64,000 nt of DNA from Hansschlegelia beijingensis (lineage in GTDB: Bacteria > Pseudomonadota > Alphaproteobacteria > Rhizobiales > Methylopilaceae). Both the position numbers and the translations under genes were made by a program. The notes under the pieces were generated by a model. It saw only the letters and a list, made by a program, of their open reading frames with translations, ran no database searches and had not been told where the DNA came from. This document shows, piece by piece, positions 49,811 through 64,000 of this stretch (positions are counted from its first letter, which is position 1; every line of letters starts with the position of its first letter). The stretch lies in NCBI RefSeq assembly GCF_014196425.1, contig NZ_JACIDR010000001.1, positions 248,001 to 312,000 on the forward strand, in the 5' to 3' direction.

Positions 49811-51124
49811 TCACTGCTGTTTCCGTCGCTCCGCGACCTTTTCGGGCGTCACCTGGCCCTGCTTCCCGCTGAAGTGGCCGATGACGTAGTTCGCCACGGC
49901 GGCGAGCTCAACGTCCGAATAGGCGGCGAAGCTCGGCATCCACGCGCCGGAGTTGATGTCCTTCAGGTCCGATCCCTGAAGCAGCGCCATCGTCAGGTTC
50001 ACGCCGTCGGGATCGTTCACCGAGCGCAGGCCCGCGAGCCCGGCGTAGGGCGTCTGCTGGCCCTTGCCGTCGTACTGATGGCAGCTGGCGCAGGCGCCCT
50101 CGAAGATCTTGCGGCCGAGATCGCCCTTCGCGGCGTCCGCCGGCGGGGCCCAGGCGGTGGATTTCTTCAGCGACTCCGGATCAGGCGCGATCTCGGTCCC
50201 GGCGGGCCCGGGCTGCGCCTTCACGATCCGCAGGTAGCTGATCAGCGCGTTCCGGTCGCCCTCGTTCAGGTGGCGGGTGCTGTATTCGACCGCCTCCGCC
50301 ATCGGGCCGGAAGCCGCCGCGCGTCCCTCGGCGTGGCCCTTCGCGAAGTAGTCGGAGAGCTGCTGGTCGGTCCAGGCGCCGACGCCGAAGGTCTTGTCCG
50401 AGGTGATGTTGTAGGCCCGCCAGCCCTGGATGTCGGCGCCGGCGAACTCCTTGCCGTCATCGAGCGCGAAGGCGAGGTTGCGCGGCGTGTGGCACTCGCC
50501 GCAATGACCCAGCGCGTTGGCCACGTAGTCGCCCCTGTTCTGCTCCGGCTTGCGGTCAGGATCGTCGCGGAAGCGGCGGGCGTCGAGGAACGCCATGTTC
50601 CAGAACGCCATCGCCCAGCGCTGGTTGAACGGGAAGGACAGCTCGTTCTTCTTCGCCGGCGCGTGAACCGGCTCGAGGCTGAACAGGTAGGCCTTGATGG
50701 CCACCGCGTCGTCGCGGCTCATCCTGGTGTAGGACGTGTAGGGGAAGGCCGGATAGAGATGGCGGCCGTCCTTGCGGACGCCGTGATGGAGCGCGCGGAC
50801 GAAGTCGTCGTCGCTCCAGGTCCCGATGCCGGTCTCCTTGTCGGGCGTGATGTTGGTCGAATAGATCACCCCGAAAGGCAGCTTGAACGGCGTTCCGCCC
50901 GCATAGGGCTTGCCGCCCGGGACCTGATGGCAGGCGACGCAGTCGGCCGCATGCGCCAGATACTCGCCGCGCCTGACGAGTTCGGGCGACGCCGGCGCGT
51001 CGGCCGCCATGACGTCCCTGTCGTTGTGCAGCCAGCGGTAGCCGGCGAGCCCCGCGATCCCGATGGCGGCCAGAACGACGATCGCGACCGCGATCCTGAC
51101 CAGGTTTCTCACGACCGCCCTCAC
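49811..51124 (-). CDS. Tri-haem membrane-anchored cytochrome c subunit
   Basis: 437 residues: N-terminal anchor (VRIAVAIVVLAAIGIAGLAG), then three haem motifs CVACH, CGECH and CASCH at about residues 62, 205 and 345. This matches cytochrome subunits of alcohol/aldehyde dehydrogenase and isoquinoline-oxidoreductase complexes. It would pass electrons from the molybdenum enzyme to the respiratory chain. Its start overlaps the stop of the molybdopterin subunit gene (ATGA-type). Confidence 0.9.
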   Translation of the reverse strand: MRAVVRNLVRIAVAIVVLAAIGIAGLAGYRWLHNDRDVMAADAPASPELVRRGEYLAHAADCVACHQVPGGKPYAGGTPFKLPFGVIYSTNITPDKETGIGTWSDDDFVRALHHGVRKDGRHLYPAFPYTSYTRMSRDDAVAIKAYLFSLEPVHAPAKKNELSFPFNQRWAMAFWNMAFLDARRFRDDPDRKPEQNRGDYVANALGHCGECHTPRNLAFALDDGKEFAGADIQGWRAYNITSDKTFGVGAWTDQQLSDYFAKGHAEGRAAASGPMAEAVEYSTRHLNEGDRNALISYLRIVKAQPGPAGTEIAPDPESLKKSTAWAPPADAAKGDLGRKIFEGACASCHQYDGKGQQTPYAGLAGLRSVNDPDGVNLTMALLQGSDLKDINSGAWMPSFAAYSDVELAAVANYVIGHFSGKQGQVTPEKVAERRKQQ

Positions 51125-53328
51125 GCCGCGCCCGCCTTCGGATCAGCGAGCAGCCGGGGGTCGAGCGGCAGCCTCCGCAGGCGGACGCCGGTCGCGGCGA
51201 ACACCGCATTGGCGAGCGCCGGGGCGGCGATCGCGGTGCCGACCTCGCCCATGCCGCCGATGGGGCCTTCGTTCTTAACGATGTGCACCTCGATCGGCGG
51301 CGTCTCGTTCAGGCGCATCATCCGGTAGTCGTGGAAGTTGCTCTGCTTCACGGCGCCCTTCTCGAAGGTGATCTCGTTGAAGAGGGCCATCGTCCAGCCG
51401 AAGATCAGGCCGCCCTGGATCTGCGCCTCCACCGTGTTCGGGTTCATCACCGGGCCGCAGTCGATCGCGGCCACGCCGCGCCTGATGCGGATGACGCCGC
51501 GCGGCGACACCTCGACCTCCGCGATCGCGCAGACATGGCTTCCGAACGGCGATGCGAAGGCGACGCCGCGGCCGACGCGCGGCGGCAGCTTCTCGCCCCA
51601 GCCGATCGCCTCCGCGGCCTTGTTCAGCACAGAGAGCGGACGCGGGTTCTTGGTCAGCATCTTGCGCCGGAACTCCACCGGATCCTTGCCGGCGGCGTGC
51701 GCGAGCTCGTCGACGAAGCCCTCGACCTTGAAGATGTTGTGCGTCGGTCCGACGCCGCGCCACCAGCCGATCGGAATGGCCTCCGGCATGTCATGCGGCA
51801 CCCATTCCACGTGGAAGGCGGGGATGTCGTAGGACAGCTCGTCGGAGCACTCCGTCAGGTCGGCGTCGAAGCCGTCCTTGCGCAGCATCTGCGGCGCCCA
51901 GCGCTTCGGCACCGAGGCTCCGCAGGTGCGATCCTTCCAGACCACCGGGTAGCCCTCGTCGTCCACCACGGCCGAGACCCGGTCGAGATAGGCCGTGCGC
52001 GGAATGTCGTGGCGGATGTCGTGCTCGCGCGACCAGATCATCTTGACCGGGTAGGGAACCTGCTTGGCGATGTTGACCGCGAGCTCGACGGAGTCGACCT
52101 CGAGCCTGCGCCCGAAACCGCCGCCCAGATACTGGTTGTGGAGGATGATCTTGTCCTCCGGCAGTCCGGTCAGCTTCGCGGCCGCGCCGACGGCCCGGGT
52201 CGGCACCTGGCTGCCCACCCAGATCTCGCAGGCGTCCGGCCGCACATGCACGACCGCGTTGAGCGGCTCCATCGGGGCATGCGCGAGGATCGGGTGCTGG
52301 TAGACCGCCTCGATGGTCTTGCCCTTGCGGTCGAGCGGGCCGTCGCTGCGGGCGACCAGCGCCTTGCCGGTGCGCGACGCCTCGTCGAGCGCCTTGAACA
52401 GGCCCTCGGTCGAGAAATCGACGTTGGGCCCGTGGTCCCACTCGATCTCCAGGGCCTCGGCGGCCTTCTTCGCCGCCCAGTAGTTCGGCGCCGTCACCGC
52501 GACGCCGTGCGGCAGGCGGATGACGTCCTTCACGCCCGGCTGCTTGCGCGCCTCGTCCTCCTTGACCGACTTCAGCGTGCCGCCGGCGGTCGGACAGGTG
52601 ATCACATAGGCGACCTGCATGTCGGGCACGCGGATGTCGATGCCGAAGATCGCCGAGCCGTCGACCTTGGAGGGGCTGTCGATGCGCCGCATCGGCTTGC
52701 CGACGAGCTTGAAGTCCTTCGGGTCCTTCAGCCCGACCTTCTCGGGCGTCTGCTGCCTTGCGGCGGCCTCGGCGAGTTCGTTGTAGGTCGCGGAGCGTCC
52801 GCTGGCGGCGTGCTTCACGACGCCCGCCTTGGTGACGCATTCGGCGGCCGGCACGCCCCACTGCTCGGCCGCGGCGGAGATCAGCATGGCGCGCGCCACC
52901 GCGCCGGCCTCGCGCAGGATCATCCAGTTCGCCCGCACCGTCGTCGAGCCGCCGGTGGTCTGCGACTTGAGCAGCGGCGTGCCGTAGAGCGCGTCGATCG
53001 GCGGGGCGTGCTGGACGATGACCTGGTCGAGCCCGACGTCGAGCTCCTCGGCGAGCAGCATCGCTTCCGTGGTGTAGACGCCCTGGCCCATCTCGACGTT
53101 CGGCATCACCAGCCGCACCGGCCCTTCTCGGTCGATGCGGATCAGCGCGTTGGGGGCGAAGGTCGCGCCTTCCCGGGCGGCGAGCTCGGCGTCGCCGGGC
53201 TGGGGGCGCGCCGAGATGGTGGCCCTGGCCGAGCCGACGCCGAGGAAGAAGGCGAGCGCGAAGCCGCCGCCGGTCTGCAGGAGCGCGCGGCGGCTGGGCT
53301 GCGCGACGTCGGGGATCGGGAGGGTCAT
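51121..53328 (-). CDS. Molybdopterin-binding subunit, xanthine dehydrogenase family (IorB-like)
   Basis: 735 residues with a Tat signal ([20 protein letters not shown]). The aldehyde oxidase/isoquinoline oxidoreductase fold shows [73 protein letters not shown] and [20 protein letters not shown] (the molybdenum-site Glu region is GEVGT). It hydroxylates N-heterocycles or oxidises aldehydes in the periplasm; the substrate is unknown. Coupled to the 2Fe-2S subunit upstream by a 4-base overlap. Confidence 0.9.
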
Positions 53329-53831
53329 TGCGCCGGCCCCTTCTGGAGGTTGTAGGCGATCGTCTGTTCGGCGACCGGCTTACCGGTGGCGGCCTGATGG
53401 ATCGCCTGGCGGATGCGCACATAGGTGCCGCAGCGGCAGATGTTGCCCGACATGGCGGCGTCGATGTCCTCGTCGGTCGGCTGCGGGTTGTGCCGCAGCA
53501 GCGCGGCGGCGCTCATCACCTGGCCGGTCTGGCAGTAGCCGCACTGCACGACCTCGACGGCGAGCCACGCGTCCTGGATCTTCTTGCCCTCCGGCGTCGC
53601 GCCGATCGCCTCCACAGTGGTGATCTTGGCGTCGCCGAGCTCCCCGACCGGCAGCACGCAGGAGCGCACCGCCTGGCCGTCGACATGCACCGTGCAGGCG
53701 CCGCACTGGGCGATGCCGCAGCCGAACTTGGTTCCGGTGAGGCCGATCACGTCGCGCAGCACCCAGAGGAGCGGCATGTCCTCGGGAACCTCGACGGAGC
53801 GGTCCTCGCCATTGACGTTGAGCGTGAGCAT
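53325..53831 (-). CDS. (2Fe-2S)-binding small subunit (IorA-like)
   Basis: 168 residues. The plant-type 2Fe-2S domain has [17 protein letters not shown], and the second domain has [16 protein letters not shown] and [16 protein letters not shown]. It carries electrons from the molybdenum subunit to the cytochrome subunit. No signal peptide is present, so it is presumably exported together with the Tat-targeted large subunit, as known for this family. First gene of the leftward three-gene unit. Confidence 0.92.
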
Positions 53832-54068: not shown

Positions 54069-55040
54069 ATGGATTACGTCAAACTCGGCTCCACCGGCCT
54101 CGACGTCTCGCGCGTCTGTCTCGGCTGCATGACCTATGGCGAGCCCGGACGCGGCGCCCACGCCTGGACGCTCGACGAGCAGACCAGCCGGCCGCTGATC
54201 CGGCAGGCGCTCGAGCTCGGGATCAATTTCCTCGACACCGCGAATTTCTACTCGCTCGGCTCCTCGGAGGAGATCGTCGGCCGCGCGATCCGGGACTTCG
54301 CCCGCCGCGACGAGATCGTGCTGGCCACCAAGGTGTTCATGCCGATGCGGCCGGGCCCGAACGGCCGCGGCCTGTCCCGCAAGGCGATCTTCGCGGAGCT
54401 CGACGCGAGCCTGAAGCGGCTGGGGACGGATTACGTCGATCTCTACCAGATCCACCGCTGGGACTACGCCACGCCCATCGAGGAGACGCTGGAGGCGCTG
54501 AACGACGTCGTGCGCGCCGGCAAGGTCCGCTACATCGGCGCCTCGTCCATGTACGCCTGGCAGTTCGCCAAGGCGCTCTACGTGTCTCGGCTCAATGGCT
54601 GGGTCGAGTTCGTGAGCATGCAGAACCACCTCAACCTGATCTACCGCGAGGAGGAGCGCGAGATGCTGCCGCTCTGCGCGGACCAGGGCGTCGGGGTGAT
54701 CCCGTGGAGCCCGCTGGCGCGCGGGCGGCTCACCCGGGACTGGGACGAGAGCAGCGCGCGGCAGGACAGGGACGAATTCGGCCGAACGCTCTACGTGCCG
54801 AGCGACCGGCAGGTCGCCGAAGCCGTGGCCAAGGTCGCGGCGGCGCGCGGCGTGTCCCGCGCCCAGGTGGCGCTCGCCTGGGTGGCGCAGAAGTCGGAAG
54901 TCACGGCGCCCATCATCGGCGCCTCGAAGCCCGGCCACCTTACGGACGCGGCCGCCGCGCTCTCGCTGGACCTTTCGGCCGACGAGATCGCCGCGCTGGA
55001 GGCGCCCTACCAGCCGCACGCCGTGGCGGGCTTCGCCTGA
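54069..55040 (+). CDS. Aldo/keto reductase
   Basis: 323-residue NADPH-dependent (alpha/beta)8-barrel oxidoreductase, close to the YajO/YeaE-type group (MDYVKLGSTGLDVSRVCLGC, FLDTANFYSLGSSEEIVGRA, ATKVFMPMRPGPNGRGLSRK, VDLYQIHRWDYATPIEETLE). Asp, Tyr, Lys and His of the catalytic tetrad are all present. The gene is divergent from iorA with a 237-base gap. The substrate is unknown. Confidence 0.92.
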   Translation: MDYVKLGSTGLDVSRVCLGCMTYGEPGRGAHAWTLDEQTSRPLIRQALELGINFLDTANFYSLGSSEEIVGRAIRDFARRDEIVLATKVFMPMRPGPNGRGLSRKAIFAELDASLKRLGTDYVDLYQIHRWDYATPIEETLEALNDVVRAGKVRYIGASSMYAWQFAKALYVSRLNGWVEFVSMQNHLNLIYREEEREMLPLCADQGVGVIPWSPLARGRLTRDWDESSARQDRDEFGRTLYVPSDRQVAEAVAKVAAARGVSRAQVALAWVAQKSEVTAPIIGASKPGHLTDAAAALSLDLSADEIAALEAPYQPHAVAGFA

Positions 55041-55168: not shown

Positions 55169-55936
55169 ATGTCTGGCGCGAGCGCGATGAACGAGAAGGA
55201 ACTGGCCGAACTCTCCGGCGGCGTGGAATCGCTGGGGTTCCGGCCGCTTTACCGGCAGGTCCGCGACCGGCTGATCAGGCGGCTCGTGGACGGCGTGTGG
55301 GCGCCGGGCGAGCCGCTGCCGAGCGAGATCCAGCTCGCCGCGGAGCTCGGCGTGAGCCAGGGGACGGTCCGCAAGGCGCTCGACGCGATGGCGGCCGAGA
55401 ACCTGGTGGTGCGCCGGCAGGGCCGGGGGACCTTCGTGGCCCGCCACGACGAAGAACGGATCATGTTCCAGTTCTTCAAGCTCGTCGGCGATGACGGCCA
55501 GAGGACCTTTCCGCAAAGCAAGGTGCTCGCCCTGTCGCTCGCCAGGGCCAACGCCGCCGAGCGCGCCGCGCTGAAGCTCGCCAAGGACACGCGCGTGATC
55601 CGCATCCGCCGGCTGCGCTCGATCAAGGGCGCGCCGGTGATCGTCGAGAACATCGCGCTGCCGGAGCCGATGTTCCCGGGCCTTGCGGCCATGGAGCCGC
55701 CGAACAACCTCTACGGCCTCTATGCGATGCGGTTCGGCGTCACGGTCGCCAGCACGCGGGAGCAGCTCAAGGCCGTCGCCGTCTGCGAGGCCGACGCCGA
55801 GGCGCTCGGCGCGACGCCGGGCGTTCCGGCGCTCAAGATCGACCGCCTCGCGCTGTCGCTCGAGCGCCAGCCCGTCGAGTGGCGCGTCAGCGTCTGCCTC
55901 ACCGAGAAGCTGCACTACCTCTCTGAACTGCGCTGA
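55169..55936 (+). CDS. GntR family regulator with UTRA domain (HutC type)
   Basis: 255 residues from this ATG. The winged helix (LYRQVRDRLIRRLVDGVWAP, then EIQLAAELGVSQGTVRKALD, VVRRQGRGTFVARH) is followed by a UTRA ligand domain (about 95-250; LARANAAERAALKLAKDTRV, IVENIALPEPMFPGL). UTRA domains bind small metabolites that lift repression. The start could be ATG 55169 or ATG 55187; both keep the domain, and no strong ribosome site decides. A GTG at 55106 abuts the operator and is unlikely. It heads the catabolic unit that follows and probably regulates it through three similar dyads. Confidence 0.87.
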   Translation: MSGASAMNEKELAELSGGVESLGFRPLYRQVRDRLIRRLVDGVWAPGEPLPSEIQLAAELGVSQGTVRKALDAMAAENLVVRRQGRGTFVARHDEERIMFQFFKLVGDDGQRTFPQSKVLALSLARANAAERAALKLAKDTRVIRIRRLRSIKGAPVIVENIALPEPMFPGLAAMEPPNNLYGLYAMRFGVTVASTREQLKAVAVCEADAEALGATPGVPALKIDRLALSLERQPVEWRVSVCLTEKLHYLSELR

Positions 55937-56251
55937 GGCCCGATGGCGGGCGCGCTCGCGAAGCCGTGTCGGCGCGCAGTCTTATAAAAGATATGTTATC
56001 ACTTTACTTCGCGGGGGAGGGCGTCTAGCGTCCTCGACCTGTCAGAGGACGGCCCGCCAAGAGGCCGCCTCGCAGTCGGCGCGAACCGGCGCCGGCGAGC
56101 AGCGGGATGGAAGCGTGACGAACGGCGTGGAACACGCAAAGGCTCACCTGTCCGAATGGCGGAGCATGGCGCACGGCGCCTGCTCCGCCCGCACTGCTGC
56201 TCCCGATACGCGACAAGATCAGAACAATCGATTTGTCCTTGGGAGGGACGC
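55937..56251 (+). promoter_or_regulatory. Regulatory leader of the catabolic operon with operator-like site 2
   Basis: 315 bases without a gene. Site 2 (55979-55999, GTCTTATAAAAGATATGTTA) matches the left half and centre of the dyad seen at 55084 and 57944, while its right half is degenerate. It is AT-rich and contains TATAAA, so the promoter probably lies here, leaving a leader of about 230 bases. I saw no known riboswitch motif. GGGAGGG stands 4 bases before the ATG at 56252. Confidence 0.55.
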
Positions 56252-57031
56252 ATGGCTTCAGAGGGCCCTCTTCTGGAGGTGGCCGGCGTAACGCTTCGCT
56301 ATAAGACGCCGCAGCATCTGATTACTGCGACCTACCGGGTCGATTTCCAGGTCTTCACCGGCGACCGGTTCATTCTGCTCGGACCTTCGGGCTGCGGGAA
56401 GTCGACGCTGCAGAAGGCGGTCGGCGGCTACATGACGCCGACCGAAGGCCAGATCCGGCTGAAGGGCAAGGTCGTGACGCGGCCGGGCCCGGACCGCATG
56501 ATGGTGTTCCAGGAGTTCGACCAGCTGCTGCCGTGGAAGACGGTGCGGCAGAACGTGGTGTTCGCGCTCGAGGCCTCCGGCCGGCTGACCGGCAAGGCCG
56601 CCGACGACAAGGCGATGCACTACATCGAGAAGGTCAATCTCGGCGGCTTCGCCGACAGCTACCCGCACATGCTGTCGGGCGGCATGAAGCAGCGCGTGGC
56701 GATCGCGCGCGGCATGGCGATGGAGCCCGACATCCTGCTGATGGACGAGCCGTTCGCCGCGCTCGACGCGCTGACGCGCCGCAAGATGCAGGACGAACTG
56801 CTGATGCTCTGGGAGGAGACGCGCTTCACGGTGCTGTTCGTCACCCATTCGATCCCGGAGGCCATCAAGATCGGCAACCGCATCCTGCTGCTGTCGCCGC
56901 ATCCGGGCCGGGTCAAGGCCGAGCTCAACAGCGTCCAGGACCCGCAGGAGGCTCGGGTGCTCGAGCAGCGGATCCACAACATGCTGTTCTCCGACGAAGT
57001 CAGCGAAGCGATGGAGCCGGTTCATGCGTGA
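56252..57031 (+). CDS. ABC transporter ATPase (nitrate/sulfonate/taurine type)
   Basis: 259-residue ATPase of the SsuB/TauB/NrtD group. It shows Walker A LLGPSGCGKST, the Q-loop MMVFQEFDQLLPWKTVRQNV, signature LSGGMKQRVAIARGMAMEPD, Walker B ILLMDEPFAALDALTR and switch His in VLFVTHSIPEAI. The permease gene overlaps it by 8 bases. Substrates in this group are alkanesulfonates, taurine, nitrate, pyrimidine precursors or phthalate-like acids. Confidence 0.9.
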   Translation: MASEGPLLEVAGVTLRYKTPQHLITATYRVDFQVFTGDRFILLGPSGCGKSTLQKAVGGYMTPTEGQIRLKGKVVTRPGPDRMMVFQEFDQLLPWKTVRQNVVFALEASGRLTGKAADDKAMHYIEKVNLGGFADSYPHMLSGGMKQRVAIARGMAMEPDILLMDEPFAALDALTRRKMQDELLMLWEETRFTVLFVTHSIPEAIKIGNRILLLSPHPGRVKAELNSVQDPQEARVLEQRIHNMLFSDEVSEAMEPVHA

Positions 57032-57920
57032 TTCCGCCGGCGCCGCCGCCATGCCGGGCTTCCCGTCTCCGCGCCCCGAACTGGTGCGCGAGGACGCTTC
57101 CGGAGAGGCCATCACGGTCGTCGAGAAGCCGCTTTCGACTTTCGAGATCTGCTACAATTCGAGCTGGCTCAGGAAGGCGCTCATCCTCGTCGTGCTGGCG
57201 GTGATCTGGGAGCTCTACGCCCGTTACCTGAACAACGACCTGCTGTTCCCGACCTTCACGGCCACGATCTCGGCCTTCGCCCGCAACGTGGCGGACGGGG
57301 TCCTGCCGGCGCGCGCCTGGGCCTCCATCAAGGTTCTGCTGATCGGCTACGCCCTCGGCGTGTTTCTGGCGGCGTTGCTCACCGCGCTCGCCATCGCGTC
57401 GCGGATCGGCACGGATTTCCTCGAGACCATGACCTCGATGTTCAATCCGCTGCCGGCGATCGCGCTGCTTCCGCTCGCGCTGATCTGGTTCGGCCTCGGC
57501 AATGGCAGCCTGGTCTTCGTGCTGGTCCATTCCGTCACCTGGGCGATCGCGCTCAACACCCATTCGGGCTTCTGCTCCGTCAGCAAGACGCTGAAGATGG
57601 TCGGCAGGAATTACGGCCTCGGCGGCGCGCGCTTCATCTGGAAGATACTGATCCCGGCGGCCTTCCCGAGCATCCTCACCGGGCTGAAGATCGGCTGGGC
57701 GTTCGCGTGGCGCACGCTGATCGCCGCCGAGCTCGTGTTCGGCGTCAGCTCCGGCTCCGGCGGCCTCGGCTGGTTCATCTTCGAAAACAAGAACATGCTG
57801 GACATCCCCAACGTGTTCGCGGGGCTGCTGACCGTCATCCTGATCGGTCTCGTGGTCGAGAACCTGATCTTCCAGACCATCGAGCGCCGCACGATCCAGC
57901 GCTGGGGCATGCAGAACTGA
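57024..57920 (+). CDS. ABC transporter permease (SsuC/TauC type)
   Basis: 298 residues with about six membrane helices and the BPD_transp_1 fold. The coupling segment near FIWKILIPAAFPSILTGLKI is the EAA-like loop of this group, and FNPLPAIALLPLALIWFGLG is a family hallmark. A hydrophilic 45-residue N-terminus precedes the first helix. It partners the ATPase and the binding protein encoded 128 bases further on. Confidence 0.9.
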   Translation: MRDSAGAAAMPGFPSPRPELVREDASGEAITVVEKPLSTFEICYNSSWLRKALILVVLAVIWELYARYLNNDLLFPTFTATISAFARNVADGVLPARAWASIKVLLIGYALGVFLAALLTALAIASRIGTDFLETMTSMFNPLPAIALLPLALIWFGLGNGSLVFVLVHSVTWAIALNTHSGFCSVSKTLKMVGRNYGLGGARFIWKILIPAAFPSILTGLKIGWAFAWRTLIAAELVFGVSSGSGGLGWFIFENKNMLDIPNVFAGLLTVILIGLVVENLIFQTIERRTIQRWGMQN

Positions 57921-57943
57921 CGACCGCCCCCTCCATATCAACT

Positions 57944-57964
57944 ATCTTATATATGACCTAAGAC
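57944..57964. promoter_or_regulatory. GntR operator-like site 3 (upstream of the binding-protein gene)
   Basis: TCTTA-N9-TAAGA core within a 21-bp element that agrees with the dyad at 55084 at all but a few defined positions. It lies 84 bases before the binding-protein ATG in the 127-base gap, so an internal regulated promoter for the second half of the operon is likely. Confidence 0.6.
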
Positions 57965-58047
57965 GTTGACATCGTCGGACCGCCGGATAGCCTCGGCGGG
58001 TCAATAAGAAACGATAAAGCCGCCAACAGGCGGCGGGGAGAAAACGC

Positions 58048-59055
58048 ATGGCCATCGGATTGACGCGGGGCCTCTGCCTCGCCGCAGCGCTCGCTTTCGG
58101 CTGGTCGACCGCCGCCTCGGCGGAGGTCAGCACCGTCAGGCTCGCCAAGCAGTTCGGCATTTCCTACCTGCCGCTGACCGTGATCCAGGAGGAGAAGCTC
58201 CTCGAGAAGCACGCCAAGGACCAGGGTCTCGACGTCACCACCGAGTGGCTGCGCTTCACCGGCGGCTCCGGCATGAACGAGGCCCTGCTGTCCGGCAATC
58301 TCGACTTCGCGGCCGGGGGCGTCGGTCCTGCGCTCACCATCTGGGGCAAGACGCGCAACAATCTGAAGGTCAGGGGCGTCGCCGCGCTCAACGCGATGCC
58401 GCTCTACCTCGTCACCACAAATCCTGACGTAAAGACGATCAAGGACTTCACCTCGAAGGACAAGATCGCCCTGCCGACCGTCAAGACGTCGATCCAGGCC
58501 GTGACGCTGCAGATGGCCGCCGAAAAGGCGTTCGGAGAAGGTCAGCAGAACAAGCTCGACCCGCTCACGGTCTCGATGGGCCATCCGGACGCGCAGATCG
58601 CCATGATGGGCGGCAAGTCCGAGATCAACGCGCATTTCGGCTCCTCGCCGTTCCAGGAGCTTGAGCTCAAGGACCCGAAAGCCCACAAGGTGCTCGACAG
58701 CTACGACGTGCTGGGCGGGCCGCACACCTTCAACCTGGTCTGGGCGAGCACCCGCTTCGTCGACGCGAACCCGAAGATCGTGACCGCCCTCGTGGCCGCG
58801 CTCGAGGACGCGATGCAGCGGATCAAGACCGATCCGAAGGCGGCCGCGGAGCTCTGGATCAAGGCCGAGAACGTCAAGATGCCGGTCGAGGACGCGGTGG
58901 CGATCATCTCCAATCCCCAGAACGAGTGGACCACGACGCCGAAGAAGATGCTCGCCTATCTCGATTACATGAACCGGGCGGGCCTGGTCTCCACCAAGAC
59001 GGATGACTGGAAGGAACTGTTCTTCCCGAACATCCAGAACGCCCAGGGCAGCTGA
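58048..59055 (+). CDS. ABC transporter substrate-binding protein (NMT1/SsuA type)
   Basis: 335-residue periplasmic binding protein with a signal peptide ending TAASA. The mature start EVSTVRLAKQFGISYLPLTV and the motifs FTGGSGMNEALLSGNLDFAA and KVLDSYDVLGGPHTFNLVWA fit the nitrate/sulfonate/taurine family. Ligand residues cannot be assigned by eye. GGGGAG precedes the ATG. It is followed 12 bases later by the Fe-S subunit gene, so import and oxidation are cotranscribed. Confidence 0.88.
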   Translation: MAIGLTRGLCLAAALAFGWSTAASAEVSTVRLAKQFGISYLPLTVIQEEKLLEKHAKDQGLDVTTEWLRFTGGSGMNEALLSGNLDFAAGGVGPALTIWGKTRNNLKVRGVAALNAMPLYLVTTNPDVKTIKDFTSKDKIALPTVKTSIQAVTLQMAAEKAFGEGQQNKLDPLTVSMGHPDAQIAMMGGKSEINAHFGSSPFQELELKDPKAHKVLDSYDVLGGPHTFNLVWASTRFVDANPKIVTALVAALEDAMQRIKTDPKAAAELWIKAENVKMPVEDAVAIISNPQNEWTTTPKKMLAYLDYMNRAGLVSTKTDDWKELFFPNIQNAQGS

Positions 59056-59067
59056 GGCGAAACCGGC

Positions 59068-59817
59068 ATGAGCGCAGCGGCGACGGCGGCGCGCGCGGAC
59101 GCGGACGGTCAATTGACCGTTCGGGTCTGGCGAGGCGCGGAGCACGGCGGGTTCCAGACGTTCCAGGTCGCCCGTCGGGCGAACCAGACGATCCTGGACG
59201 TGGTGACCGAGATCCAGCGCGAGCAGGACGCGACGCTCGCCTATCGCTACGCGTGCCGGGTCGGCATGTGCGGGTCCTGCGCGATGGTGGTCAACGGCCG
59301 CCCGCGCTGGACCTGCCGCACCCGCGTGGCGCGGGCGGAGGAGGGCGGGCAGATCACGCTCGAGCCGATGCGCAACATGCCGGTCGTGAAGGATCTCGCC
59401 GTCGACATGGAAAGCTTCTTCGAGAAGTGGCGCGACGCGAAGGGCTTCTTCGAGCCGGGCGAGACGCCGGCGAACGACTTCGCGGTCGTGCGTCCCGACA
59501 GCCCCGAACGCGCCCAGGCCGACGCCGGCGTCGAATGCATCAATTGCGGCGTCTGCTACTCGGCCTGCGACGTCGTCAGCTGGAATCCCGAATATCTTGG
59601 CCCGGCGGCGCTCAATCGCGCCTGGACGCTCGTCAACGACGTGCGGGACCGCGGCCAGGACGCGCGGCTCGACGCGGTCAGCGGCGACGCCGGCTGCCAC
59701 TCCTGCCACAGCCATATGAGCTGCACCGAGTTCTGCCCCAAGGCGCTCGCCCCCACCTATGCGATCGCGGGGCTGAAGCGCGTCACCGCGCGCCGCGTCT
59801 GGAAGCGCGGATCGTGA
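59068..59817 (+). CDS. Succinate dehydrogenase/fumarate reductase-like iron-sulfur subunit
   Basis: 249 residues. The N-terminal 2Fe-2S ferredoxin domain has CRVGMCGSCAMVVNGRPRW and then C (the C-x4-C-x2-C...C set). The C-terminal domain has CINCGVCYSAC and CHSCHSHMSCTEFCPKAL for the 4Fe-4S and 3Fe-4S clusters. It shuttles electrons between the flavoprotein encoded at 62.7 kb and the membrane quinone subunits. The gene order Fe-S, two anchors, then flavoprotein five genes later is unlike sdhCDAB. It has an acidic/Arg-rich insert near DADGQLTVRVWRGAEHGG. Stop overlaps the next start (GTGA). Confidence 0.9.
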   Translation: MSAAATAARADADGQLTVRVWRGAEHGGFQTFQVARRANQTILDVVTEIQREQDATLAYRYACRVGMCGSCAMVVNGRPRWTCRTRVARAEEGGQITLEPMRNMPVVKDLAVDMESFFEKWRDAKGFFEPGETPANDFAVVRPDSPERAQADAGVECINCGVCYSACDVVSWNPEYLGPAALNRAWTLVNDVRDRGQDARLDAVSGDAGCHSCHSHMSCTEFCPKALAPTYAIAGLKRVTARRVWKRGS

Positions 59818-60143
59818 GCGCGCGTCTCTATCTCGCGCAGCGGCTGACCGCGATGGTGCTCGCCTTCGCGGTGACGGTCCATCTCGTCACGATCGTCTAT
59901 GCGGTGCGCGGCGGCCTCACGGCCGGCGACATCCTGGCCCGCACCACGGGCAATGTCGGCTTCCTGGCGTTCTACGTCGTGTTCGTGATCGCCGCGGCCA
60001 TCCACGCGCCGATCGGGCTGCGGAGCGTGCTGCGCGAGTGGACGCCGTGGCGCGGCCGCTCGCTCGACCTCGCGATGCTGGGCGTCGCGGCCGTGATCGC
60101 GGCGCTGGGCCTCAGGGCCGCCTATGCGGTCTACGCCGCATGA
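59814..60143 (+). CDS. Succinate dehydrogenase-like membrane anchor subunit 1
   Basis: 109-residue protein with three membrane helices (LTAMVLAFAVTVHLVTIVYA, VGFLAFYVVFVIAAAIHAPI, DLAMLGVAAVIAALGLRAAY). His23 and the His in AAIHAPIGLRSVLREW are in positions suited to haem b or quinone binding. The GTG start overlaps the Fe-S subunit stop (GTGA), and the stop overlaps the next start, which supports this short reading frame. It is the SdhD/FrdD-like anchor by elimination. Confidence 0.8.
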   Translation: MSARLYLAQRLTAMVLAFAVTVHLVTIVYAVRGGLTAGDILARTTGNVGFLAFYVVFVIAAAIHAPIGLRSVLREWTPWRGRSLDLAMLGVAAVIAALGLRAAYAVYAA

Positions 60144-60499
60144 CCGCCGCGACCGGCGCGCTCCGGGCCTCCCGCCGCAAGCCCGGCTTCATCGCCGCGA
60201 TGCTGCATCGCCTGTCGGGCGTCGCGCTCGCGATCTTCCTGCCGATGCACTTCATCGCGCTCGGCACGGCGCTGGGCGGCGCCGACCGGCTCGAGAGCTT
60301 CCTGCTGCTGACCCACAATCCGGTCGCGCGCTTCGCCGAGTGGGGCCTCGTCAGCGCGCTCGCGCTGCACATGGCCCTCGGGCTGCGGGTGCTGGCGATC
60401 GAGTTCGCGGCGGTGCGCGAGCGCACGGCCGTCACGGTTTCGCTCGCCTGCGCGGCCGGCATGGCGGTCGGCCTCCTGTTCCTGATGAGCGGAGCATGA
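60140..60499 (+). CDS. Succinate dehydrogenase-like cytochrome b subunit (SdhC-like)
   Basis: 119 residues with three membrane helices. HRLSGVALAIFLPMHFIALG carries the HR-x-[ST]-G motif of SdhC, and ALALHMALGLRVLAIEF adds a second His. It should contribute the quinone and haem site of the complex. Overlaps at both ends (ATGA) link it to the other anchor and to the exporter gene. Confidence 0.85.
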   Translation: MTAATGALRASRRKPGFIAAMLHRLSGVALAIFLPMHFIALGTALGGADRLESFLLLTHNPVARFAEWGLVSALALHMALGLRVLAIEFAAVRERTAVTVSLACAAGMAVGLLFLMSGA

Positions 60500-61236
60500 C
60501 CGCGCTCGCGGGCATCCCGCTGTCGACGCTGGCCTATCTGTGGGCCGGGGCGTTCGTGGGCGGCGTGGCCTCGGGCGGCGCCGGCTTCGCCTTCGCGCTC
60601 GCGGCCTCCGCGATCTGGCTGCACGCGCTCGAGCCGGCGCAGACCACCGCGCTCACCGTCACCTGCGGGACGCTGCTCCAGTTCGTCACCGTCTGGCCCT
60701 TCCGGAAGGAGATCGACCGCGGCCGGCTGACGCCCTTCGTCATCGGGGCTGCGATCGGCGTTCCGCTCGGGGTCGCGGTGCTCTCCAGCGTCGACGTGCC
60801 GAAGCTCAAGATCGCGATCGGCGCCGGCCTTGCGGTCTACGGCGCCTATGCGCTGATCGCGCCGCGACTGCCCCGCGTCAGCGCCGGCGGCCGGAAGGCG
60901 GACGTCGCGGTCGGCATCGCGGGCGGCGTGCTTGGCGGCATCGGGGGCTATTCGGGCGTGCTGCCGACGATCTGGTCGCAGCTGCGCGGCTGGCCCAAGG
61001 CGACCGCGCGGGCGGTCTACCAGCCGTACATCCTGTTCGCGAACTTCCTGACCATCGCGCTGCTCGGCGCGGTGGCCTTCGACAGCCGGGGCGTCTCGCT
61101 GTTCCTGCTCGCCCTGCCGGCGCTCGCGCTCGGCGGCTGGGCGGGACTTTCGATCTTCAGCCGGCTCGACGAGCGGCTGTTCCGGCGGTTCCTGGCCGGG
61201 ATGCTGCTCGTCTCCGGCCTGGCGCTCCTGATCTAG
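60496..61236 (+). CDS. TauE/SafE family (sulfite/organosulfur) exporter
   Basis: 246-residue membrane protein with two repeated four-helix halves (LWAGAFVGGVASGGAGFAFA; GIAGGVLGGIGGYSGVLPTI, then WSQLRGWPKATARAVYQPYI). Known members export sulfite, sulfoacetate or similar acids during sulfonate breakdown, but the family is broad. Its tight insertion (ATGA overlap) among the oxidation genes suggests that the pathway releases an anion that must leave the cell. Confidence 0.87.
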   Translation: MTALAGIPLSTLAYLWAGAFVGGVASGGAGFAFALAASAIWLHALEPAQTTALTVTCGTLLQFVTVWPFRKEIDRGRLTPFVIGAAIGVPLGVAVLSSVDVPKLKIAIGAGLAVYGAYALIAPRLPRVSAGGRKADVAVGIAGGVLGGIGGYSGVLPTIWSQLRGWPKATARAVYQPYILFANFLTIALLGAVAFDSRGVSLFLLALPALALGGWAGLSIFSRLDERLFRRFLAGMLLVSGLALLI

Positions 61237-61247
61237 GAGGACGAACG

Positions 61248-62120
61248 ATGCGACTGGACATGAACGAGGTCGAGGCGGTCTGCTCGGACCTCTACGTCCG
61301 CGCGCTCAAGATCCTGCCGCCGGACATCAAGGCGGGCTTCAAGGAGCTCGTCGGCGCGGAGACCGGCGAGACCGCCAAGGCCGTGCTCGGCACCATGGTG
61401 GAGAACATCGCGGTCGCGGAGCGCACCAACAACATCCTGTGCCAGGACACCGGCATCCCGATCTACAACGTCACGATCGGTCGCGGCGTCGATTTCGACG
61501 GCGCCGAGCTGAAGGCCGCGATCCGCCGCGGCTGCGAGCGCTCCACGAAGGAGAACTCGCTGCGCTCCTCGGTGGTGCATCCGATCACCCGCAAGAACGA
61601 CCAGACCTCCTGCGGCGTGCGGGTGCCGATCATCCATGTCGACTTCGACGAGCGCCAGGAGACGGTCGCGATCGAGATGATCCCGAAGGGCTCGGGCTCG
61701 GAGAACGGCTCGTTCCTGCAGATGCTGCTGCCCTCCGACGGCATCAACGCCGCCAAGCGCTTCGTCATCGACCGGGTGATCGAGCTCGGTGGCCGGGTAT
61801 GCCCGCCGACCATCGTGGGCGTCGGGCTCGGCGGCACCTCGGATCTCTGCATGCACCTCGCCAAGATGGCCGCGACGCGGCCGTTGAGGTCGGTCTGCTC
61901 CGACCCGGAAGGGGCGAGGATCGAGGCGGAGCTGTCGCGCGCCGTGAACGAGCTCGGCATCGGCCCGCAGGGGCTCGGCGGCCGCTCGACCAGCTTCGCG
62001 GTCCATGTCGAGATCGCCGCCACCCACATCACGCAGAACCCGGTCGCGGTGAACATCCAGTGCCACTCCGCCCGGCGCGCCACGGCGACCATCACGCCGG
62101 GCGGCATCGCGTTCAGCTGA
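61248..62120 (+). CDS. Class I fumarase/L(+)-tartrate dehydratase-like alpha subunit
   Basis: 290 residues. The TtdA/FumA N-terminal domain has ERTNNILCQDTGIPIYNVTI with the first cluster Cys, NSLRSSVVHPITRKNDQTSC and GRVCPPTIVGVGLGGTSDLC. The three Cys for a 4Fe-4S cluster are present. AGGAGG lies 7 bases before ATG 61248. Two-subunit class I hydratases act on fumarate, tartrate or mesaconate. Coupling to an SDH-like complex suggests that an unsaturated diacid or analogue made by it is hydrated next. Confidence 0.88.
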   Translation: MRLDMNEVEAVCSDLYVRALKILPPDIKAGFKELVGAETGETAKAVLGTMVENIAVAERTNNILCQDTGIPIYNVTIGRGVDFDGAELKAAIRRGCERSTKENSLRSSVVHPITRKNDQTSCGVRVPIIHVDFDERQETVAIEMIPKGSGSENGSFLQMLLPSDGINAAKRFVIDRVIELGGRVCPPTIVGVGLGGTSDLCMHLAKMAATRPLRSVCSDPEGARIEAELSRAVNELGIGPQGLGGRSTSFAVHVEIAATHITQNPVAVNIQCHSARRATATITPGGIAFS

Positions 62121-62127
62121 GGCAGAG

Positions 62128-62739
62128 ATGACCCATCATGTCCTCGACATGCCCGTCGACGAGGCCGCGGTCCGCGCGCTCAGGGTCGGCGACACCGTCA
62201 CGCTGCGCCGGACGCTGTTCGGCATCCGCGACGCGACGCTGATCCACATGTTCGACCGCGGCCGCGAGACCCGGCTCGAGCTCGCGGGCCACGCCGTCAT
62301 CCACACCGCGCCAAACGTGCGGCGGGTGGAGCCGTCGGAGGCCGCGCCGGTCGGCTATGAGCCGTTCTGCATCGGCACCACCACCTCGATGCGGATGGAG
62401 CGCTTCACCCGCCCGCTGATGGAGCGGGAGGGCGTGCGGCTGATCATCGGCAAGGGCGGCATGGGGCCGGGGACGCTGGAGGCCTTCCGCGACCTCGGCG
62501 GCGCCTATCTGGCGATCGTCGGCGGGGCCGCGGCGCTGGAGACGACCTGGATCGAGCAGATCGAGGACGTCGACATGGACGACCTTCACCCCGAGAGCCT
62601 GTGGCGCTTCAGGATCCGTGACTTCGGCCCGCTGCTGGTCGGCATGGATTCCCACGGCGGCTCGCTCTACGCCAACGTCCGGGACGACGTCGCCAGCCGG
62701 CGCGCCGCGGTGCTGGCGAGCATCGGAGCCGGCGAATGA
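62128..62739 (+). CDS. Class I fumarase/L(+)-tartrate dehydratase-like beta subunit
   Basis: 203 residues, matching the C-terminal domain of class I fumarases (HVLDMPVDEAAVRALRVGDT, RDATLIHMFDRGRET, FCIGTTTSMRMERFTRPLME, IIGKGGMGPGTLEAFRDLGG, then MDSHGGSLYANV). It completes the hydratase with the alpha subunit encoded 7 bases upstream. The stop overlaps the flavoprotein start (ATGA). Confidence 0.88.
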   Translation: MTHHVLDMPVDEAAVRALRVGDTVTLRRTLFGIRDATLIHMFDRGRETRLELAGHAVIHTAPNVRRVEPSEAAPVGYEPFCIGTTTSMRMERFTRPLMEREGVRLIIGKGGMGPGTLEAFRDLGGAYLAIVGGAAALETTWIEQIEDVDMDDLHPESLWRFRIRDFGPLLVGMDSHGGSLYANVRDDVASRRAAVLASIGAGE

Positions 62740-64000
62740 CGCCGGCGCTCCGCACGGTCGACACCGACATCCTGATCCTCGGCTCCGGCGGCGCGGGTCT
62801 GTTCGCAGCCCTGCACGCCAAGAAGACCGCCCCCGATCTCGAGGTCACGGTCGCGGTGAAGGGCCTGCTCGGCAAGTGCGGCTGCACCCGCATGGTGCAG
62901 GGCGGCTACAACGTCGCGCTGGCGCCCGGCGACTCCGTCGAGCGCCACTTCATGGACACGATCGAGGGCGGCAAGTGGCTCAACGACCAGGATCTCGCCT
63001 GGACGCTGGTGACGGAGGCGCAGATCCGCATCCGCGAGCTTGAGAGCGAGCTCGGCTGCTTCTTCGACCGCAACCCTGACGGGACCGTCCACCAGAAGGC
63101 CTTCGCGGGCCAGACCTTCGACCGCACGGTCCACAAGGGCGACCTGACGGGCATCGAGATCATCAACCGCCTGTCCGAGCAGGTCTGGCGCCGCGACGTG
63201 AAGCGGCTCGAGGATCACAGGGCGCTGGAGCTGATCCCCGCCGCGGACGGCTCCGGCCTCGCCGGCGTGCTGATGCTCGACATGCGCTCCGGCGAGCCGC
63301 TGTTCGTGCGCGCCAAGGCCACGCTGCTCGCGACCGGCGGCGGGCCGACCATGTACAAGTACCACACGCCCTCGGGCGACAAGTCGTGCGACGGGCTCGC
63401 CATGGCGCTGCGCGCCGGCCTGCCGCTGCGCGACATGGAGATGGTGCAGTTTCACCCGACCGGGCTGCTCGCGGGTCCCGACACCCGAATGACCGGGACG
63501 GTGCTGGAGGAGGGGCTGCGCGGCGCCGGCGGCTATCTGCTCGACGGCGGCCGCGAGCGCTTCATGCATCTCTACGACCCGCGCAACGAACGCGCGACGC
63601 GCGACATCGTCAGCCGCTCGATCATCCGCCGCATCCGCGACGGCCACGCCACCGAGAATGGCGGCGTCTACATCCAGATGAGCCATCTCGGGCCCGAGAA
63701 GGTCAGGAAAGACTTCAAGGGCATGGTGGAGCGCTGCGCGGATTGCGGTTTCGACCTCGCGGCGGGCCTCGTCGAGGTCATCCCGACGGCGCATTACATG
63801 ATGGGCGGCGTCGCCTTCGGCGGCGACTGCCGGACCGAGCTGCCGCGGCTCTACGCGGCCGGCGAGGACACCGGGGGAGTGCACGGCGCCAACCGGCTCG
63901 GCGGCAACGGTGTCGCGAACTCGACCGTGTTCGGCGGCGTGGCGGGCCGCGCCATGGCGCATGAGGTCGTGCGCGCAGGATCGCGCGCCGACCCGGACCC
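62736..64000 (+). CDS. Fumarate reductase/succinate dehydrogenase-like flavoprotein (partial, runs off window)
   Basis: 421 codons visible, with no stop before the end. FAD motif DTDILILGSGGAGLFAALHA at the N-terminus, QFHPTGLLAGP, IPTAHYMMGGVAFGGD and the end GGVHGANRLGGNGVANSTVF show the FrdA/SdhA/NadB family. Two standard residues differ. The covalent FAD-linking His position (in S-H-T-V-A-A-E-G-G of FrdA) aligns with Cys50 in GCTRMVQGG. The RGEGG motif reads RGAGG (Ala264). FAD is thus probably non-covalent and the substrate may not be succinate. It pairs with the Fe-S and anchor subunits five genes upstream. Confidence 0.87.
   Translation, partial: MTPALRTVDTDILILGSGGAGLFAALHAKKTAPDLEVTVAVKGLLGKCGCTRMVQGGYNVALAPGDSVERHFMDTIEGGKWLNDQDLAWTLVTEAQIRIRELESELGCFFDRNPDGTVHQKAFAGQTFDRTVHKGDLTGIEIINRLSEQVWRRDVKRLEDHRALELIPAADGSGLAGVLMLDMRSGEPLFVRAKATLLATGGGPTMYKYHTPSGDKSCDGLAMALRAGLPLRDMEMVQFHPTGLLAGPDTRMTGTVLEEGLRGAGGYLLDGGRERFMHLYDPRNERATRDIVSRSIIRRIRDGHATENGGVYIQMSHLGPEKVRKDFKGMVERCADCGFDLAAGLVEVIPTAHYMMGGVAFGGDCRTELPRLYAAGEDTGGVHGANRLGGNGVANSTVFGGVAGRAMAHEVVRAGSRADPD

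Follow-up and report, generated by a model that had tools for sequence, protein, structure and literature searches.

The gene unit that closes the analysed stretch of Hansschlegelia beijingensis DNA raises the question of what a sulfonate-type importer, paralogues of succinate dehydrogenase (SDH) and fumarase and a sulfite exporter family protein do together in one operon. The stretch (the window, 64,000 nucleotides) corresponds to positions 248001-312000 of contig NZ_JACIDR010000001.1 (C1) of a 3.66 Mb genome. All genes of the unit are on the + strand; it starts at about 55169, reaches the window edge and continues beyond 64000. Coordinates below are those of the window unless prefixed with C1. 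The unit is a real and widespread sulfonate-linked catabolic operon, and its gene content, linkage and conservation were observed directly. Its substrate is probably 3-sulfopropionate, degraded by way of complex II and fumarase paralogues.

Genes were scored against Pfam and NCBIfam models. The SdhB-like iron-sulfur subunit (59068..59817) reached 202 bits with TIGR00384 (cut-off 88) and retains the cysteine motifs of its clusters. The SdhD-like membrane subunit (59814..60143, GTG start) scored 26.9 bits with Pfam Sdh_cyt (cut-off 25.8), and the SdhC-like cytochrome b subunit (60140..60499) 54 bits with TIGR02970 (cut-off 52.3). The SdhA-like flavoprotein (576 residues, the proposed 3-sulfopropionate dehydrogenase) starts at 62736, is cut by the window edge at 64000 and runs on to C1:312466. 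Together these proteins provide the flavin adenine dinucleotide (FAD) subunit, the three-cluster iron-sulfur subunit and the cytochrome b membrane anchors of the complex II (SDH/fumarate reductase, FRD) superfamily. Their genes are divided around a TauE/SafE sulfite exporter family gene (60496..61236; PF01925, 4.3e-23, 82.7 bits, cut-off 32.6) and the alpha (61248..62120) and beta (62128..62739) genes of a class I fumarase-type hydratase, the proposed 3-sulfoacrylate hydratase. The alpha subunit scored 271 bits with TIGR00722 (cut-off 100.65); the beta subunit scored 101 bits with PF05683 (cut-off 22.2) and 134.6 bits with TIGR00723, just under the cut-off of 145.15. The pair thus falls within the class I fumarase/tartrate dehydratase family.

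The 5' part of the unit comprises a GntR/UTRA regulator (55169..55936; Pfam UTRA 1e-28, GntR 1.3e-21; start codon uncertain, longest open reading frame (ORF) from 55106) and an ATP-binding cassette (ABC) importer. The ATPase (56252..57031) is of the nitrate/taurine/sulfonate type, an assignment to subfamily only, with its best NCBIfam models all under their cut-offs; the TauC/SsuC-like permease (57024..57920) is also below NCBIfam cut-offs. Substrate-binding protein 1 (58048..59055) matches Pfam NMT1 and is SsuA family-like, scoring 88.4 bits with TIGR01728, under the cut-off of 163.5 at which it would be called SsuA/TauA-type. A sequence search of solved structures gave one very weak match for this protein and no hint of its ligand. 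Genes are tightly packed, with 4-base overlaps at SdhB/SdhD, SdhD/SdhC, SdhC/TauE and FumB/SdhA. A first-pass annotation, made from the sequence alone, had listed these genes and described an overlapping unit under a GntR regulator; all of them were found on the + strand in the order it gave, split SDH included.

That annotation had also proposed reading past position 64000, and the genes found there point to the likely pathway. Beyond the SdhA-like gene lie a thiamine pyrophosphate (TPP) enzyme (about C1:312478-314124), a second, NMT1/SsuA-like binding protein (about C1:314181-315185), a SuyA-like protein of 121 residues (C1:315243-315608), a SuyB-like protein of the UxaA family (C1:315619-316887), an SlcC-like PGDH-family dehydrogenase (C1:317020-317964), a ComC-like Ldh_2-family dehydrogenase (C1:317967-318971) and a SulP transporter (about C1:319275-321110). 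The SuyB-like and SuyA-like proteins are 67% and 48% identical to plasmid-encoded proteins of the hps-suyAB cluster of Cupriavidus pinatubonensis HN-2. The order on that plasmid (regulator, hpsN, hpsO, major facilitator superfamily transporter, dehydrogenase, two UxaA-family genes) agrees with the published order hpsRNOUPsuyAB (PMC11382572). The only match of SuyB among solved structures is galactarate dehydratase, so it is the comparison with C. pinatubonensis that identifies the protein. With the small subunit gene adjoining the large one, and both close to the pair of a characterised cluster, the two were assigned to the SuyAB sulfo-lyase. The dehydrogenases beside suyAB fit SlcC and ComC by family and position, with 178 bits for the ComC-like protein against a cut-off of 500 (NF040650).

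Sulfolactate differs from malate in that a sulfonate stands where malate has one of its carboxylates. SlcC and ComC convert (S)- to (R)-sulfolactate, and SuyAB splits the latter into pyruvate and sulfite (PMC12421959, PMC6018796). Since the SuyA-, SuyB-, SlcC- and ComC-like genes represent this route, the SDH- and fumarase-like pair most likely makes sulfolactate from 3-sulfopropionate. We infer the substrate, both new enzyme activities and the importer specificity. In the proposed route the ABC importer, with its two binding proteins, would take up the C3 sulfonate 3-sulfopropionate, its presumed ligand; the complex II paralogue (SdhA/B/C/D-like) would oxidise it to 3-sulfoacrylate and pass the electrons to quinone; and the fumarase-type [4Fe-4S] hydratase would add water to give 3-sulfolactate. 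For the later steps (SlcC/ComC, SuyAB, TauE) the published functions of relatives were adopted. The overall logic would be that of the series succinate, fumarate, malate, oxaloacetate, with one carboxylate swapped for a sulfonate.

The first-pass annotation had suggested import, oxidation, hydration and release of sulfite or another anion from a perhaps sulfonated succinate analogue, with sulfosuccinate as the example. The downstream SuyAB-, SlcC- and ComC-like genes support such a scheme with a sulfonate and release of sulfite, and shift the substrate: their relatives handle sulfolactate and sulfopyruvate, which favours 3-sulfopropionate over sulfosuccinate. Sulfosuccinate would be oxidised to sulfofumarate and hydrated to a bisulfite adduct of oxaloacetate by like enzyme chemistry, and TctC/TctA-type carboxylate transporters occur near some relatives; SlcC, ComC and SuyAB would be unneeded on that route, yet they are often found at loci of the window's type, and this substrate is considered very unlikely.

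For the 3-sulfopropionate reading the active site of the flavoprotein is informative. The protein scored 419.8 bits with TIGR01812 (cut-off 567.3), which places it outside succinate dehydrogenase proper, and the part within the window is 39% identical to the next best flavoprotein of the genome. Glu258 occupies the substrate-site Thr position of E. coli SdhA in 27/27 SdhA-like sequences, as against Thr in all five solved relatives shown, and Cys50 stands at the position of the covalent-FAD His in 27/27. His240 (27/27), Arg289 and His353 (26/27 each) and Arg387 (25/27) are retained, the remaining sequences being truncated there. The roles of these positions in the substrate site, covalent FAD attachment and catalysis are those we take them to have by equivalence. 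The SDH- and fumarase-like pair shares with complex II and class I fumarase the families, cofactor motifs, subunit set and reaction type; it differs in the distance to the genome's own flavoprotein, the split around TauE and fumarase, and the Thr to Glu and His to Cys replacements.

Cys at the covalent-FAD His position is a feature of enzymes working as fumarate reductases or aspartate oxidase. This replacement, together with a best NCBIfam score of 499 bits against a model for fumarate reductase whose cut-off is 718, would fit a pair running in reverse, dehydrating sulfolactate and reducing the product to 3-sulfopropionate as an electron sink. The importer and SuyAB in the operon point instead to degradation, and the genome carries Xsc and three genes of the sulfite-oxidase family PF00174; the reverse direction is thus hardly to be expected.

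The hydratase is assumed, from its sequence and setting, to act on 3-sulfoacrylate. Three cysteines for the [4Fe-4S] cluster (C65, C185 and C272 in the window's alpha subunit) are conserved at 90% or more in both of the hydratase subtypes into which the related loci divide, termed here window type and type B.

A housekeeping role was considered and rejected: a further SDH-like cluster was read from ORFs on C2 of the genome and a FumC above its family cut-off is encoded on C1, so that the unit is not the sole SDH and fumarase of the cell. A pathway apart from the tricarboxylic acid cycle is therefore supported. Four same-genus genomes in the sample carry neither the SdhA-like gene nor SuyB, which makes the operon accessory.

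The distribution of the SdhA-like gene was surveyed in 150 same-order genomes, of which 21 gave a match at E <= 1e-120: the window's own and 20 more, these at 61-76% identity. A survey of 289 same-class genomes found SuyB in 25, and 22 had the SdhA-like gene; the samples for the two genes were taken to be the same genomes, being equal in size and identical in the entries compared. Both genes occurred together in 14 of the 288 other genomes against 1.75 expected (Fisher p = 8e-13), and collapsing to genera, the only handling of phylogeny applied, gave p = 9e-9. In 40 same-order genomes hand-picked from the 150 (every one of the 20 further carriers of the SdhA-like gene plus 20 non-carriers, four of the latter from the window's genus), SuyB was present in 14/20 with the gene and 2/20 without (p = 1e-4). 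The link between the SdhA-like gene and SuyB is beyond chance.

Relatives of the SdhA-like gene are carried on plasmids of Methylobacterium radiotolerans (84% identity), Rhodococcus jostii (54%), the archaeon Natribaculum (50%), Pseudomonas sp. MPC6, Sulfitobacter, Paracoccus and Pseudorhizobium. The M. radiotolerans plasmid holds genes for two binding proteins, SdhBDC, FumAB, SdhA, a TPP enzyme and SuyAB together with SlcC- and ComC-like genes. A large part of this set is found again at many loci with alpha- or betaproteobacterial record titles; the arrangement is therefore not due to chance. In the actinobacterium R. jostii RHA1 (plasmid NC_008269.1) the SdhA-like gene (54%, 795267-796985) and a SuyB-like gene (60%, 815881-817038) lie about 19 kb apart. 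At a Natribaculum luteum locus (L034) the 50% SdhA-like gene stands with SdhB near TauE and UxaA-family genes (33-37% to SuyB/SuyA), and an argininosuccinate-lyase-family gene there might replace fumarase.

Gene neighbourhoods were counted by tblastn at 108 loci (72 window-type, 26 type B and 10 without a usable fumarase alpha match). Of these, 80 came from a scan of named genomes in which the best 80 of 579 confirmed relatives were kept, and the sample leans accordingly towards the window's type. Identity thresholds were chosen at 55% for SuyB or 40% for SuyA, 45% for SlcC, 40% for ComC and 45% for MmsA; matches to TauE, sulfate exporters and sulfite oxidase were counted at E 1e-10 whatever their identity. 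Counts of ORF clusters are rough and were replaced by the tblastn counts, as the quick ORF caller often took antisense frames (cluster c19 looks like such an artefact).

Window-type loci (n=72) held SuyA/SuyB in 44 cases, ComC in 41, TauE in 40 and SlcC in 33, with sulfite oxidase (3), sulfate exporter (2) and MmsA (0 at >=45% identity) rare; at least one of SuyAB, SlcC, ComC, TauE, sulfate exporter and sulfite oxidase was present in 61/72. In the 52 such loci of at least 15 kb, SuyAB was found in 37, TauE in 35, ComC in 34 and SlcC in 30. The gap between SdhA and SuyB ranged from 434 to 9539 bp, and both were on the same strand in 34/42 measured loci. Further in favour of a sulfonate pathway, genes of 2,3-dihydroxypropanesulfonate (DHPS) degradation are present at some loci (HpsN-like at >=45% in 7/108 loci, HpsO-like in 7/108). 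Type B loci (n=26) held SuyAB in 1, ComC in 2, SlcC in 2, TauE in 6, sulfate exporter in 5, sulfite oxidase in 3 and MmsA in 4, and 8/26 had at least one sulfonate or sulfite partner other than MmsA. One of them (L126) is a short contig with a fumarase beta 68% identical to the window's and is probably misfiled. The untyped loci (n=10) held SuyAB in 0, ComC in 2, SlcC in 1, TauE in 3 and MmsA in 2.

These counts bear on whether the pair might have a common diacid as substrate (methylsuccinate, tricarballylate or succinate itself) and merely be sited in a sulfonate island. Family models name the pair only as SDH/FRD and fumarase/tartrate dehydratase, and 18/26 type B loci have no sulfonate or sulfite gene nearby. 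Linkage repeated across many genera, the genome-level association with SuyB and the clade-specific active-site change in the SdhA-like protein all speak against such a substrate, which is regarded as quite unlikely.

Type B loci also bear on how the carbon-sulfur bond is broken. On the Pseudomonas sp. MPC6 plasmid (L030:10560-23358) a subtype B cassette has an MmsA-type dehydrogenase gene directly after fumarase beta, then a sulfate exporter, with a sulfite oxidase about 4 kb further on, on the other strand. Type B locus L132, on a Methylobacterium nodulans plasmid, has, like L030, sulfite oxidase or a sulfite dehydrogenase with cytochrome c, a sulfate exporter and TauE nearby. In direct desulfonation the hydroxyl would be added to 3-sulfoacrylate at the carbon that carries the sulfonate. 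The product, a malonate semialdehyde bisulfite adduct, would break down to sulfite and malonate semialdehyde, and an MmsA-type dehydrogenase would convert the latter to acetyl-CoA. MmsA-like genes (4/26), sulfite oxidase (3/26) and sulfate exporters (5/26) in type B loci would suit it, as would the position of MmsA directly after fumarase beta in MPC6 and in L037 and the sulfur genes that follow in MPC6. MmsA is found at >=45% identity in none of the 72 window-type loci, where SuyAB, SlcC and ComC are found instead; SuyB is present elsewhere in 11/15 same-order genomes typed B, including that of L037 (G108); and of the four MmsA matches one (L030) is the sequence used as query, while another (L132) falls where no gene is annotated. 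Such chemistry is accordingly judged improbable. A broader proposal, that complex II and class I fumarase paralogues were recruited into a respiratory sulfonate pathway with two hydratase subtypes in Proteobacteria and a flavoprotein relative in haloarchaea, subtype B cleaving the C-S bond at the sulfonate carbon to sulfite and malonate semialdehyde, is unlikely; if true, the cleavage by the subtype B hydratase would be a new kind of desulfonation.

Several observations weigh against degradation of 3-sulfopropionate through sulfolactate. The SuyA-like protein has no match among Pfam and NCBIfam models, the SuyB-like protein matches only galactarate dehydratase in NCBIfam and below cut-off, and the ComC-like, binding-protein and ABC genes also score under NCBIfam cut-offs. 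The direction of the SdhA-like reaction is not proven, because Cys replaces the covalent-FAD His in all 27 sequences. Ordinary fumarase stereochemistry would give (R)-sulfolactate by the Cahn-Ingold-Prelog rules, so that SlcC/ComC beside SuyAB would be superfluous; that both are kept hints at an (S)-configured product or at another source of sulfolactate. SuyAB was not seen in the available stretch of 28/72 window-type and 25/26 type B loci, some contigs being short. None of SuyAB, SlcC, ComC, TauE, sulfate exporter and sulfite oxidase was found in 11/72 window-type loci, and 18/26 type B loci lacked any sulfonate or sulfite partner gene. The TPP enzyme has no assigned place in the proposed route.

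The first-pass annotation knew of no described pathway with this gene set. As to the route, this did not stand. According to a 2024 paper (PMC11489063), a thesis by Mayer (Konstanz) proposed that Roseovarius nubinhibens degrades homotaurine via 3-sulfopropionate, sulfoacrylate and sulfolactate, the same conversion as proposed here. As to the genes it held: by title and start of abstract, among the open-licence papers listed, no assignment of SDH- or fumarase-like genes to the two steps from 3-sulfopropionate to sulfolactate was found. The operon would thus represent a variation on known sulfonate catabolism, with a route foreseen in that thesis and genes not found assigned in the literature searched. 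The same paper describes formation of 3-sulfopropionate by Enterococcus gilvus from sulfoquinovose and DHPS, notes that gut bacteria have gene clusters like those of E. gilvus, and gives homotaurine as a further source. Bilophila wadsworthia obtains an electron acceptor from 3-sulfopropionate, by a route that the authors leave open (PMC11489063, PMC12890257); beyond this use, PMC11489063 names only the one thesis for 3-sulfopropionate degradation.

Known sulfolactate degradation (Chromohalobacter salexigens, Paracoccus) shares SuyAB-, SlcC- and ComC-like genes in one unit, whereas here the SDH/fumarase-like pair and the SsuA-like importer come first. In the DHPS pathway of C. pinatubonensis (hpsRNOUP-suyAB) sulfolactate is likewise the hub and is made by HpsN (PMC11382572), whereas no hps-type gene was found among the operon genes identified here. 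Growth of Paracoccus wurundjeri on sulfofucose raises nine proteins of a 'cluster 3' for fumarate and tartrate metabolism, a cluster that has a TauE homologue as well and that the authors tie to the Krebs cycle (PMC12421959). Because Paracoccus versutus was found to carry the cassette with TauE, 'cluster 3' may be the same cassette. If the assignment is true, a gap in the organosulfur cycle would be closed by the candidate genes, by a complex II paralogue that may pass electrons from a sulfonate to respiration and by a fumarase paralogue with a sulfonated alkene as substrate, and genes now annotated 'succinate dehydrogenase / fumarate hydratase' could be read correctly. The prediction is directly testable in cultured relatives such as M. 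radiotolerans.

The TPP enzyme was tried as Xsc and rejected: it scored 161 bits with TIGR03457 (cut-off 676), and an Xsc match of 962 bits, above cut-off, lies elsewhere in the genome. Among proteins of solved structure, the TPP enzyme is closest in sequence to 2-hydroxyacyl-CoA lyases and oxalyl-CoA decarboxylases, and its ORF cluster spans 24 loci (a rough count based on the ORF caller). As a guess, it might be a sulfopyruvate decarboxylase feeding Xsc.

On the plasmid of Pseudorhizobium banfieldiae NT-26 (L033:18995-24653) the cassette is followed by a tripartite ATP-independent periplasmic (TRAP) importer, a 3-hydroxyisobutyrate-dehydrogenase-family gene and an aldehyde dehydrogenase; such a set could make 3-sulfopropionate from 3-hydroxypropanesulfonate. 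In the window, upstream of the regulator gene, ORFs resembling the large and small subunits of a molybdenum hydroxylase (51121-53831, - strand) and, just before the regulator, an aldo/keto reductase-like ORF (54069-55040, + strand) were read from the sequence; they are probably outside the operon.

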